From a virus: a DNA stretch of 26,009 bases. Shown here piece after piece: positions 2 through 24,069 of the stretch (position 1 is the first letter of the stretch; each line of letters opens with the position of its first letter). Position numbers and translations under genes: made by a program. The notes beneath the pieces were generated by a model. The model had not been told where the DNA came from. It worked only from the letters and a program-made list of their open reading frames with translations, and ran no database searches. The DNA lies in IMG/VR virus record IMGVR_UViG_3300046740_000245, positions 1-26,009 of that record; one strand, written 5' to 3'.

Positions 2-673
2 GTTTATTGGATATTTGAGCAAGAGGCTGAATTGATTTGGTTATGTCAATTGGCTCATTTAATTGGTAGAACGCCGATTATTTATATAATCCCGTATCTT
101 CCATATGCCAGGCAAGATAAAGGAGTAGATAATCATAGTTGTTTCGCTAGCACTACTTTTCAAATATTGCTGGATGGTTGTTGTAATCCGACTGATACGA
201 TTCACGTTTTAGATGCACATTCTGAATTTGCGTATAATTATTTTGACGCAAAAGTTATCAACTACATTCCTTATGATGAAATTAAGTTTGAATTTGAGGT
301 TAACAATAATAACTTAATGTTATTGCCTGACTTCGGCGCATTTAATCGTTACTACCAAGCAGTTTCCCATAAAGCTACACATTGTGTGAAAGACCGTGAC
401 CAAGCAACAGGAAAGATTAATTCAATTACATTACCTGATGATGTTGATTTTAAAAATAAACGTGTATTAATAGTTGATGACATCTGCGATGGTGGCGCAA
501 CATTCATAGAAATAGCAAAGCAATTAAAAGAGCGCGAAGTGGATCAAATAGCGTTATATGTAACGCATGGAATATTTAGTAAAGGACATGCGCCGCTAGT
601 AGATGCTGGAATAACTCAAATTCGGTCTTATAACTATGAAAGTTTTTACGAGAAAATAATCAATGAACAATAA
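2..673 (+). CDS. prs: Ribose-phosphate pyrophosphokinase-like protein (5' end outside window)
   Basis: The family transfers pyrophosphate from ATP to C1 of ribose 5-phosphate, giving PRPP; a phage subgroup is reported to act on ADP-ribose instead. The reading frame is open to the window edge, so the gene starts upstream; a TTG at 32 is only an internal codon. Visible motifs are YARQDK (about 104-121), DAHSEF (about 212-229, matching the metal-binding DLHA region of Prs), a K-x-R pair in VKDRD (about 386-400, matching the catalytic flexible loop) and VDDICDGGATF (473-505), the PRPP-binding loop. About 223 residues are present, against roughly 300 for full-length Prs. The stop overlaps the start of the Nampt-like gene, so the two are probably translated together. 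Family assignment is firm. Whether the substrate is ribose 5-phosphate or ADP-ribose cannot be decided from sequence. Confidence 0.93.
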   Translation, partial: VYWIFEQEAELIWLCQLAHLIGRTPIIYIIPYLPYARQDKGVDNHSCFASTTFQILLDGCCNPTDTIHVLDAHSEFAYNYFDAKVINYIPYDEIKFEFEVNNNNLMLLPDFGAFNRYYQAVSHKATHCVKDRDQATGKINSITLPDDVDFKNKRVLIVDDICDGGATFIEIAKQLKEREVDQIALYVTHGIFSKGHAPLVDAGITQIRSYNYESFYEKIINEQ

Positions 674-2081
674 TCTATTATTAATGACAGACGCTTATAA
701 ATTCGGTCACATCGAACAATATCCAGAAGGCATGAATAAAGTTTATTCCTATTTAATATCGCGCAGTGACCATAAATACAAAGAACAAATGTTTTTTGGA
801 TTGCAATATTATTTGAAGCAGTATTTAAATCCAATCAGCTACGAAGACATACAAGAAGCTGTGCATTATCGAAAACAAATATTAGGCAGTTGTCCATCTT
901 CTCTAGTAGCGGCATTTTTGAACTTGTATAAATTAGGTTATCTACCATTAAAGATTAAAGCTGTGCCTGAAGGAATGGTATTGCCTGTTAAAAATGTATT
1001 GATGACAATTACTAATACTCATCCTGATTTTTATTGGTTAGTCGGTTACGTCGAATCATTATTACTGAAAGTTTGGAACACAATTAGTGTGGCTACATAT
1101 AGCTATGAAATGAAAAAGCTAATTACAAAGTTTGTGGAGATGACATGTGACGATACAAGTCCAATTCCTTTTATGCTTCATGACTTTGGTTATCGGGGTT
1201 GTTCTTCTGAAGAAACAGCGGCACTTTCTGGAGCCGCTCACTTATGTAATTTTCTCGGTACTGATACAGTTCCCGCCGTTAAGCTGCTCGATCAATACTA
1301 TATGGCTGACGGTATCTCTGGGTATAGCGTGCCAGCTAGTGAGCATAGTGTTATGTGCGCTTATGGAAAAGAAAATGAAATCGATGCCTTTCGAGCTATG
1401 CTTAAATTGTATCCTACCGGCATTCTTAGCATCGTTGCTGATAGTTACAACTTATGGAAAGTGCTCGTAAACATATTGCCGCAACTTAAAGATGAAATAA
1501 TAGCGCGTGATGGTAAAGTAGTTATTCGCCCAGATAGCGGTGACCCACATAAGATTATATGTGGCAATCAAGAAGGCACAAACGTATTTGAAAAAACTGG
1601 CTGCTTAAGATTATTAGACAGTACATTTGGCAGCACAACTAATTCAAAAGGCTTTAAGGTTTTAAACCCAAAGATTGGTTTAATTTATGGGGATGGAATG
1701 TACTATGAACGATATAAACATATATTACAGGACATGCACGCGATGGACTATGCCGCATCAAATCTTGTCATTGGCCTGGGCGGCTTGTTATTACAACAAC
1801 ATAATAGAGATGATTTGGGAATTACATTTAAAGCAACTTATGGTGAAAGACATGGAAAGCCATTTGATATCGTTAAAGACCCAATCACAGATGCAAAAAA
1901 GAAATCTCATCAAGGTTTACTATGCTTAGAAAACAAAGACGACATTATTTCTACAAAGGAGCATTGCTCAGCCGAAGAAGAGCAAAGCGGCTTGCTTCGT
2001 GTTGTCTATGAAGATGGAAAACTTTACAATCAAAGTGATTTAAACGATATTCGGGAGAGAGCGAATGCCAAGCAAAACTAA
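663..2081 (+). CDS. nadV: Nicotinamide phosphoribosyltransferase-like protein (NadV/Nampt family)
   Basis: Nampt joins nicotinamide to PRPP to give NMN, the first step of NAD+ salvage. The 472 residues match the family's usual length. Motifs equivalent to human Nampt are present: HDFGYRG at 173-179 (Arg196 equivalent), GTD ending at D201 (Asp219), PASEHSVM with H228 (His247), RPDSGDP at 289-295 with D291 (Asp313, which favours amide over acid), GDG at 343-345, a glycine-rich stretch near 369-374 and KDP near 405. The start at 663 lies inside the end of the prs-like gene, an 11-base overlap implying coupled translation. Together the two form a phage NAD+ regeneration cassette. The enzyme could instead be a Namat, using ADP-ribose-pyrophosphate to make NAD+ directly, as in the NARP1 pathway. 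Family assignment is near certain. Confidence 0.96.
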   Translation: MNNNLLLMTDAYKFGHIEQYPEGMNKVYSYLISRSDHKYKEQMFFGLQYYLKQYLNPISYEDIQEAVHYRKQILGSCPSSLVAAFLNLYKLGYLPLKIKAVPEGMVLPVKNVLMTITNTHPDFYWLVGYVESLLLKVWNTISVATYSYEMKKLITKFVEMTCDDTSPIPFMLHDFGYRGCSSEETAALSGAAHLCNFLGTDTVPAVKLLDQYYMADGISGYSVPASEHSVMCAYGKENEIDAFRAMLKLYPTGILSIVADSYNLWKVLVNILPQLKDEIIARDGKVVIRPDSGDPHKIICGNQEGTNVFEKTGCLRLLDSTFGSTTNSKGFKVLNPKIGLIYGDGMYYERYKHILQDMHAMDYAASNLVIGLGGLLLQQHNRDDLGITFKATYGERHGKPFDIVKDPITDAKKKSHQGLLCLENKDDIISTKEHCSAEEEQSGLLRVVYEDGKLYNQSDLNDIRERANAKQN

Positions 2082-8620: not shown

Positions 8621-8696
8621 GGTGATTGTAGCTTAATAGCAAAGCCCTAAGCTGTGAACTTAGTAGATATGGGTGCGAGTCCCTTCCTTCACCCCA
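8621..8696 (+). tRNA. Degenerate tRNA-His(GTG)-like gene
   Basis: A cloverleaf with anticodon GTG can be folded by hand. The extra G-1 at 8621 faces discriminator C at 8693, the histidine tRNA hallmark, and CCA is encoded at 8694-8696. Anticodon stem CTAAG/CTTAG (8647-8651, 8659-8663) is perfect, with loop CTGTGAA and anticodon at 8654-8656. D stem GCTT/AAGC (8631-8634, 8642-8645) is paired, but the D loop has only 7 bases and lacks the usual GG. The acceptor stem (8622-8628 with 8686-8692) has two mismatches. The T stem has one mismatch, and its loop TGCGAGT lacks the usual TTC. It may be a decayed phage tRNA, a functional but unusual one, or a tRNA-like RNA. A standard tRNA search might score it low. 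Confidence 0.7.
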
Positions 8697-22228: not shown

Positions 22229-22666
22229 TTATTTTACGATGGTGAATTTCGGCGCTCCGGTTATACCTAGATTTGCCGATAATAATTCATTTTTGAAATT
22301 ATTAAATTCTTCATCGCCTGTTGTGTTAATAATCTTTTTATATTCTCGCATATCAACTTTATATGACGCTATTTTAATTACGCCATCAATAATTGTACCG
22401 TGAGGATAAATGCTATACATACGAGAAAGCTTTTTTTGATCCCAAGTTATCTTACTTGGCAATTCTACTTTGCACCTGTAGTTTTTGCCTTGAATTCTAG
22501 CGGTTTTCACACCATTATTAAATTCAGCGAGTTGCATTAGTTTTGTTTTTGCAAAATTCGCCATTATTTTATAATTGTTTATTTGCTCTTCGGAATGCTC
22601 GATAATATGAATTAATTCATCAATCGTATATATTTCACCAGTTGTTGTATCCATAGAAACAGTCAT
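22229..22666 (-). CDS. Conserved-type phage protein of recombination cluster, 145 aa
   Basis: No enzyme motif is seen. The N-terminal 50 residues are helical and may form a coiled coil (ELIHIIEHSEEQINNYKIMA). A strand-rich core follows (VKTARIQGKNYRCKVELPSK, ITWDQKKLSRMYSIYP, IASYKVDMREYKKIINTTGD). The C-terminus ends GAPKFTIVK. The 'R---K-----LP---W----L---YP------I----- V--REFKKL-NT---' outline resembles proteins I associate with RecT/SSB-type phage operons; this is memory, not a search result. GAGGTGA lies just before the ATG. It is separated from the DUF669 gene by a strong hairpin. Confidence 0.72.
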   Translation of the reverse strand: MTVSMDTTTGEIYTIDELIHIIEHSEEQINNYKIMANFAKTKLMQLAEFNNGVKTARIQGKNYRCKVELPSKITWDQKKLSRMYSIYPHGTIIDGVIKIASYKVDMREYKKIINTTGDEEFNNFKNELLSANLGITGAPKFTIVK

Positions 22667-22691
22667 AAATCACCTCATTATTATTAAATTA

Positions 22692-22721
22692 AATCGACTC
22701 ACTTTGGTAAGTGAGTCGATT
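22692..22721 (-). terminator. Strong hairpin between DUF669 and 145-aa genes
   Basis: A perfect 13-bp inverted repeat, 22692-22704 and 22709-22721, closes a 4-base loop seven bases after the DUF669 stop. On the minus strand it is followed by TTTAATTTAAT, which is T-rich but interrupted. It could be a weak terminator or attenuator that lowers expression of the three distal genes, or an RNA stability or processing site. A 9-base half-repeat (gagtcaatt) also continues into the DUF669 stop region. Confidence 0.6.
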
Positions 22722-22728
22722 GAGTCAA

Positions 22729-23169
22729 TTAGAACGGAACTTCATCATTGAACTTGTCCTCAACTATCGGTTGTTCAGGAGCTTGAAAATCTGTTTTTAT
22801 TCCGACAGTTTCATAGAACCGTTTAACCTCATTGCTTGGTTTACCCATATATTCTTTTGCAATAACATCAGCGTCGACAATTTTATTATGTAGTTCTTTT
22901 AAATCTTTTAAATTATCTATCCCGACATACGTACAAATGTCTGCAAGTTCTTCTCTTGCCATTCGTTGAGCAGCTTCACTAGGATTATAGATATTAAGAT
23001 TTTTAAAAATAGTTTGACCTCGCCTAAATTCGCTAACTACTTCTAACTGAATATTAGCCATTTGGTCGCCACTTTTAGAATATTTAAGTTCAGCGTTTTT
23101 AATTCTAAATGTATAGCGCCCATCCGGTAGTGCGCTCCGAACATATTCTTTTAAATTAAAATCAATCAT
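22729..23169 (-). CDS. DUF669-family protein, probable ssDNA-associated
   Basis: DUF669 proteins sit in phage recombination operons and are thought to work with single-stranded DNA. The 146 residues show the family outline: LPDGRYTFRIKNAELKYSKS, then GDQMANIQLEVVS, GQTIFKNLNIYNPSEAAQRM, LADICTYVGI and LKELHNKIVDADVI, then SNEVKRFYE. The C-terminus, VEDKFNDEVPF, is an acidic tail with a hydrophobic tip like that of SSB proteins. I start at ATG 23169 after GAGGAAA; the longer in-frame form from 23229 would overlap the preceding gene by 59 bases. It lies two genes after the RecT-like gene. Family call by eye, function inferred. Confidence 0.8.
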   Translation of the reverse strand: MIDFNLKEYVRSALPDGRYTFRIKNAELKYSKSGDQMANIQLEVVSEFRRGQTIFKNLNIYNPSEAAQRMAREELADICTYVGIDNLKDLKELHNKIVDADVIAKEYMGKPSNEVKRFYETVGIKTDFQAPEQPIVEDKFNDEVPF

Positions 23170-23170
23170 G

Positions 23171-23362
23171 TTATTTTTCCTCGTAATTTGTGATGCCATT
23201 AATAGGATGTACGACTTCGATAGTATCATCTACCATTAGTCGTTGCGTAATTAAAAGGTTTGTATCTGAATCTTTAAAGCTTTCTAACAAATCAAATAAC
23301 TCATTTTGATGAATTACACCATGCATAGTATTGCCATTTAAATCTTTAATTGTTACTTTCAT
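23171..23362 (-). CDS. Hypothetical small protein, 63 aa
   Basis: Not recognised. It starts in a TAATG overlap with the RecT-like gene and ends just before the DUF669 start, so it is co-translated with both. The first half, MKVTIKDLNGNTMHGVIHQN, may form strands, followed by a helix (ELFDLLESFKDS) and a further strand region (TIEVVHPINGI). Position between two recombination genes suggests an accessory role, which is guilt by association only. Confidence 0.7.
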   Translation of the reverse strand: MKVTIKDLNGNTMHGVIHQNELFDLLESFKDSDTNLLITQRLMVDDTIEVVHPINGITNYEEK

Positions 23363-24069
23363 TATCTGAACCCCTGACTTAATACATTTGTTTTTTTAAT
23401 TTCTTCAATAATTGCTTCATCTGAACCAGGCTCTAATAGAGAATGTCCTGAAGAAGAAAGCTCTTCTATTGTAAGCGTTGGCTCTTCATGGATTTCTTTA
23501 ACCTCTTCGATTACAGTTGCCACTATACGATCATCTTCATTAATCTCTACGCCTAGCTCTTCAGCGGTATAAACTGCAACACCCCCAAAAATCCCAGGAG
23601 TAAAATGTCTAGCCCCACGCGTAAGTGCCCGAGCAAACAACATATCTTTAGGATATTTCAGCCAGATGCTATCTTTTTTTGCTAAAAGCCCCGCTGTTTC
23701 TGCTTCTTTAATTGTAAAAGAAGCAACTCCTAAAGAAGACTCTTTGCTAATCTTCTTATTTTTTGAGTCATAAAACTCAATATGACAAACTTCATTAGTC
23801 AACTCCCGAACGCGGTAAGTATAAGTTGGATGTTGAGCGATTAAAGTTGCCATTAAATTTGCGCCTGGTACAGGTTTTCCCATGACCATATGAATGCCGC
23901 TAATACTAGCAAAAGGTGGTACGCCTAATTCTTTACCGACCATCACTTTAACTAATGCTTGTGCGTGAGATTTTAAATCTGAAAACATACCGCTTTGATA
24001 AAAAGCAGCCGCTTGTCTTTTCATTAATTCATATTCTTGAACTTCTTTAATTTGTACTAAATCATTCAT
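23362..24069 (-). CDS. recT: RecT-like single-strand annealing recombinase
   Basis: RecT-type proteins anneal complementary ssDNA during phage replication and recombination. The 235 residues include ALVKVMVGKELGVPPFASIS, GIHMVMGKPVPGANLMATLI, ASFTIKEAETAGLLAKKDS and WLKYPKDMLFARALTRGARH with FGGVAVYTAEELG. This is the core order of a RecT-superfamily group: 'MG-ELG--P---L--I-V--GkP', 'F---DA--AGL', 'W--yP--ML--RA'. The C-terminal 55 residues are acidic and low in hydrophobics. No nuclease partner such as RecE is visible in the window. GGAGAA before the ATG sets the start. It is followed by a coupled small gene and DUF669, a typical recombination cluster. Confidence 0.75.
   Translation of the reverse strand: MNDLVQIKEVQEYELMKRQAAAFYQSGMFSDLKSHAQALVKVMVGKELGVPPFASISGIHMVMGKPVPGANLMATLIAQHPTYTYRVRELTNEVCHIEFYDSKNKKISKESSLGVASFTIKEAETAGLLAKKDSIWLKYPKDMLFARALTRGARHFTPGIFGGVAVYTAEELGVEINEDDRIVATVIEEVKEIHEEPTLTIEELSSSGHSLLEPGSDEAIIEEIKKTNVLSQGFR

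Follow-up and report, generated by a model that had tools for sequence, protein, structure and literature searches.

The question raised by this locus is whether two overlapping genes at the edge of a viral contig rebuild NAD+ from ADP-ribose, in the manner of the NARP1 pathway (Adps plus Namat) of Bacillus phage SPbetaL1 (PMC12774641), or serve classical nicotinamide salvage. The window, by which we mean the whole stretch of DNA that was analyzed, is the entire IMG/VR record IMGVR_UViG_3300046740_000245 of 26,009 bases; it is classed as linear, is possibly a fragment, and has no sequence upstream. Its first open reading frame (positions 2 to 673, plus strand) is open at the contig start and encodes 223 amino acids of the PRPP-synthetase family, and the second (663 to 2081, plus strand) begins with an ATG and encodes a 472-amino-acid member of the Nampt family. 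Open reading frames and family searches confirmed the 11-base overlap of two such genes that a sequence-only reading had proposed. The same reading had placed the pair at the head of a morphogenesis block, and genes for the terminase large subunit, portal, scaffold, major capsid protein, and head closure indeed lie directly downstream. It had also seen no NMNAT, and PF01467, the nucleotidyltransferase fold of NMNAT, was likewise not found in the 26-kb window. Within this fragment, the pair thus has the NARP1 layout of an adjacent two-gene unit without NMNAT.

Two other features of the window were recorded. A tRNA-His (GTG) gene is located at 8622 to 8696 on the plus strand, between the portal and scaffold genes of the morphogenesis block. 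A divergent block on the minus strand (22229 to 24069) encodes a RecT-like annealing protein (23362 to 24069), a single-stranded-DNA-binding-like protein (22729 to 23229), and a PHROG 2480 protein whose function was not recognized.

Judged from its sequence, gene 1 is an Adps-type enzyme and not a housekeeping Prs. Its features, and the overlap with gene 2, are as follows.

2 to 673, plus strand: Adps-type PRPP-synthetase-family gene, N terminus missing at the contig edge
389 to 400, plus strand: KDRD, conserved catalytic flexible-loop residues (K130 and R132 of the partial protein)
476 to 505, plus strand: 5'-phosphate (PRPP) loop DDICDGGATF, of the Adps form, against D[TS][AG]GT in canonical Prs
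663 to 673, plus strand: 11-base overlap of the two genes, from the open reading frame coordinates

Full-length relatives of gene 1 exist (loci L003, L113, L254, and L258), and alignment with such proteins indicates that about 50 to 60 N-terminal residues are missing. The partial protein matches Pribosyltran (E value, 1.5e-8) and PHROG 619, ribose-phosphate pyrophosphokinase (5.5e-47); against NCBIfam ribP_PPkin it scores 92 bits, below the cut-off of 113, as expected of a truncated and divergent member. Profiles that had not been trained on window gene 1 gave 205 bits for Adps and 55 bits for canonical Prs, the latter represented by proteins from ten genomes. The DTxGT loop of a housekeeping-type Prs is not present in gene 1, which carries a DGGxT loop in common with most partners of Namat ligases and most partners of the ligase group, described below, to which gene 2 belongs; gene 1 and the partners in that group also show the Adps state at nearly all columns that discriminate Adps from canonical Prs. 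In two trees, gene 1 and the characterized SPbetaL1 Adps formed one supported clade (98/91 and 96/97), and canonical Prs was set apart in the synthetase tree (100/100). Profile, loop, discriminating columns, and tree thus all bear out the Adps type that had been suggested for gene 1.

Gene 2, as classified by its sequence, is not a Namat of the published type; it is a member of a third ligase clade, here called clade W, apart from both Nampt and Namat. The features that matter for this assignment are the following.

663 to 2081, plus strand: Nampt/Namat-family ligase of 472 amino acids, third clade W
762 to 776, plus strand: RSDHK, corresponding to the selectivity-clamp loop of Namat; H37 takes the place of SPbetaL1 R40
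1338 to 1355, plus strand: SEHSVM, catalytic histidine motif (H228); the VM is Namat-like, and Nampt has TI
1557 to 1601, plus strand: ICGNQEGTNVFEKTG, the ICG insertion, common to Namat and missing from canonical Nampt
1683 to 1697, plus strand: IYGDG; Tyr precedes GD in 99% of Namat and 100% of W, and Gln does so in 94% of Nampt
1779 to 1811, plus strand: clamp-helix position GGLLLQQHNRD, without aromatics, with L375 and Q379 at SPbetaL1 F392 and Y396

Family searches place gene 2 broadly, with matches to NAPRTase (6e-45) and NAMPT_N (1e-17) in Pfam, NF006629/PRK09198 (556 bits; cut-off, 405), and PHROG 448, nicotinamide phosphoribosyl transferase (9.7e-166). The catalytic core is kept (F175, R178, D201, R289, D291, and H228, corresponding to F189, R192, D215, R306, D308, and the histidine of SPbetaL1 Namat), but this core is common to Nampt and so does not discriminate. 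An AlphaFold model of the ligase (pLDDT 87.5) superimposes on Namat with a TM score of 0.92 and on Haemophilus ducreyi NadV and human Nampt with about 0.9; these nearly equal values do not discriminate between the possible substrates. The confident model does bear on whether the pair has decayed and is non-functional in this phage, as the incomplete gene 1 might suggest. We regard this as very improbable, since gene 1 is cut just where the contig ends, its reading frame is open, and both proteins retain their catalytic residues.

Gene 2 departs from Namat in the clamp. ADPR-PP selectivity in SPbetaL1 Namat has been attributed to a helix of the form GSX-phi-X-phi-X-phi-TRD with aromatics F392 and Y396, together with loop residue R40 (PMC12774641). 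The SPbetaL1 helix reads GSFTYQYNTRD and the window helix GGLLLQQHNRD, with S391, F392, Y396, and T398 replaced by G, L, Q, and N; the window ligase therefore does not carry the published motif, which has aromatics at positions 3 and 7, and it resembles instead the human (GGGLLQKLTRD) and Xanthomonas (GGALLQKVDRD) Nampt sequences. The loop, which in Namat provides a stacking residue (Arg, or Lys or Tyr plus the next residue), is variable; it reads RSDHK in the window, and most members of W carry a K or an R. The clamp motif alone had first suggested plain Nampt salvage, in which gene 2 is a true Nampt that makes NMN from PRPP and nicotinamide, gene 1 only raises the supply of PRPP, and the last step to NAD+ is left to an NMNAT of the host. 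The Nampt-type clamp residues fit this explanation, and so does the finding that Namat itself accepts PRPP in vitro; single clamp mutations in Namat carry a cost of only 1.3- to 1.7-fold (PMC12774641). As the preferred reading, it was overturned by the analysis of gene 1, which belongs to the Adps clade and is without the canonical 5'-phosphate loop, and by the partner tree presented below, and we now consider classical salvage unlikely.

For the ligase trees, relatives were gathered from viral contigs, genomes, and named phages, and the clamp columns were excluded. Three groups were supported: Nampt (100/99), Namat (100/100), and W, including the window (96/98). Gene 2 belonged to neither the Namat clade nor the Nampt clade, and W was separate from Namat also in an outgroup-rooted analysis (98/99). 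Rooting with a distant outgroup joined W with Namat (88/90), a grouping weakened by the great length of the outgroup branch. The members of W, 47 to 76% identical to the window ligase, come from uncultured IMG/VR phages and from Pedobacter and Mucilaginibacter chromosomes, the chromosomal ligases showing 54 to 57% identity. Isolates in the phage collection had no close W ligase: their best matches reached 42 to 44% identity, whereas even the most distant member of W shows 47%. Overall similarity was rejected as a classifier, since the window ligase scored an undecisive 526 bits with the Namat profile and 520 bits with that of Nampt; the W profile, built without the window, gave 716 bits. The tree and active-site comparison that the sequence-only reading had called for thus places gene 1 with Adps and gene 2 in neither known ligase clade, and what that reading named as evidence against NARP1, a grouping of the pair with canonical Prs and Nampt together with a neighboring NMNAT gene, was not observed.

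Across the discriminating columns, W agrees with Namat against Nampt at 31, including IYGD and the ICG insertion, which favors a NARP1-like role, and with Nampt against Namat at 23, which speaks against it. This intermediate sequence would suit a dual-use ligase that takes ADPR-PP and PRPP with little preference, both routes then running according to substrate supply. The dedicated Adps-type partner that almost every W locus carries points to ADPR-PP as the principal donor, and we hold dual use to be improbable. Residues conserved specifically in W and present in the window (M346, Y347, Y351, and H380) are near AMP-contacting positions in the sequence; as pointers to how W ligases might hold adenine, they are only a lead.

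The genomic neighborhoods link W ligases to Adps-type genes, with the reservation that many of the rows counted are related and not independent. An Adps-type or Prs-like gene flanks the ligase at 22 of 23 W loci and 148 of 164 Namat loci, compared with 3 of 107 Nampt loci (Fisher test of W against Nampt, 1e-20, related rows included). NMNAT-fusion genes were near 28 of the 107 Nampt ligases, 1 of the 164 Namat ligases, and none of the 23 W ligases. Both the rarity of a Prs-like neighbor at canonical Nampt loci and the distribution of NMNAT-fusion genes speak against classical salvage. A further count of PF01467 on whole contigs (2 of 12 for W versus 9 of 10 for Nampt) was dropped as evidence because the Nampt contigs had been chosen partly for an NMNAT match already seen. 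In the partner tree, the W partners formed no clade of their own and were intermixed with the Namat partners (AU p, 5e-59); W and Namat ligases thus work with one and the same kind of synthetase.

Two phage contigs, L258 and L088, are syntenic, with flanking genes 56 to 72% identical, and both keep the order Adps, macro domain, ligase. Identities within this cassette are 56% for Adps, 69% for the macro domain, and 40% for the ligase, which is of the W type in L258 and of the Namat type in L088. The ligase has thus been exchanged within a conserved cassette. Macro domains have a fold that commonly binds ADP-ribose, and the macro-domain protein is possibly a third component of NARP1-like cassettes that handles ADP-ribose derivatives. 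Macro-domain genes between Adps and ligase were observed at L258:9274-9783, L088:10893-11396, and L084:10660-11394. A gene of 187 amino acids in the same position in L254 was considered as a relative and rejected, having no recognizable kinship to the macro gene of L256; a Pfam search with it gave no match.

One characterized enzyme weighs on the other side. H. ducreyi NadV (PDB 9KE8/9KEO; encoded on pNAD1, L368:3828-5315) is nested inside the Namat clade with an altered clamp, GAQTYQRNTRD, and seems to have derived from a Namat-like ancestor whose clamp residues changed. It makes NMN in E. coli (PMC6095924), and the 5.6-kb plasmid pNAD1 carries no Adps gene. A clampless enzyme of this family can therefore run on PRPP, which favors classical salvage; the lack of an Adps gene on the plasmid, unlike the situation at W loci, counts against extending the case to the window.

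The NARP1 reading originally proposed is supported in part: gene 1 belongs with Adps, no NMNAT was found in the 26-kb window, the neighborhoods are Adps-linked, and ADP-ribose-binding modules occur in them. Gene 2 does not fit, as it falls outside the Namat clade and fails the clamp, which leaves the pair short of an established Adps/Namat NARP1 system. We nevertheless think it probable that the pair carries out a two-step, NARP1-like regeneration of NAD+ with a ligase from the third lineage. Gene 1 would transfer pyrophosphate from ATP onto ADP-ribose to give ADPR-PP, and gene 2 would join ADPR-PP with nicotinamide directly to NAD+, refilling the pool after cleavage by a host NADase defense. 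We infer ADPR-PP as the substrate of gene 2 from its Adps partner and from the ligase exchange; NAD+ as product and the anti-defense role are likewise proposed. Because the W clamp helix is of the Nampt-like glycine/leucine type, gene 2 would have to accommodate the AMP part of ADPR-PP by other means than the aromatic clamp known from Namat.

The clade also extends to bacterial chromosomes, where NrtR heads the W operons of Pedobacter, Mucilaginibacter, and L185. Operons of the order NrtR, Adps-type gene, W ligase were recorded at L174:6282-9446 and in relatives L175 to L185, on Bacteroidota chromosomes except that L185 is titled Paceibacterota. The Pedobacter genome has a separate canonical Prs besides the Adps-type gene. 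Within its bacterial family the W ligase is sporadic: in a sample of 61 genomes, the query genome alone had it, and three others have a relative at 42 to 43% identity. The literature searched reported no function for these Pedobacter and Mucilaginibacter operons, and no work on NrtR with nadV and prs was found. ADP-ribose causes NrtR to dissociate from DNA in characterized species (PMC6800001). Such a regulator at the head of the W operons, and a canonical Prs elsewhere in the Pedobacter genome, favor the NARP1-like reading. On balance we lean toward a wider view, held less firmly than that of the window pair, in which W ligases use ADPR-PP through adenine binding without an aromatic clamp, serve NARP1 in uncultured phages, and form an NrtR-controlled ADP-ribose recycling operon in Bacteroidota.

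The published Namat/NARP1 signature would label W ligases as Nampt and so overlook the pathway. If W ligases do use ADPR-PP, the aromatic clamp would be one solution among others and not a general requirement, and the evolutionary order of ADPR-PP use and the clamp would become testable with W, Namat, H. ducreyi NadV, and Nampt. The chromosomal operons would then be a case, outside phages, of ADP-ribose recycling governed by a regulator that itself responds to ADP-ribose.

Compared with known systems, the window shares with NARP1 a first gene in the Adps clade, an overlapping or adjacent ligase, and the absence of NMNAT. Its ligase shares with SPbetaL1 Namat the IYGD, the ICG insertion, and the fold, but belongs to a separate clade (supports, 96 to 100) and has a Nampt-like glycine/leucine helix in place of GSX-phi-X-phi-X-phi-TRD. 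Canonical Nampt and NadV proteins (human, Xanthomonas, and phages KVP40-like, SCTP-2, and phiN3) have the same catalytic core and a GGxLLQ..RD clamp helix; they differ in having no Adps neighbor, IQGD, and no ICG insertion, and their loci, unlike the window, often include a neighboring NMNAT, as in SCTP-2 and phiN3. We take salvage by canonical Nampt plus NMNAT to be NARP2-like. H. ducreyi NadV resembles the window ligase in being Namat-related and without the aromatic clamp residues, and differs in lying inside the Namat clade, in having no Adps on its plasmid, and in making NMN from PRPP. The NrtR operons of Pedobacter and Mucilaginibacter have in common with the window a ligase of the same clade and an Adps-type partner, but they lie on bacterial chromosomes and include an NrtR-type regulator gene.
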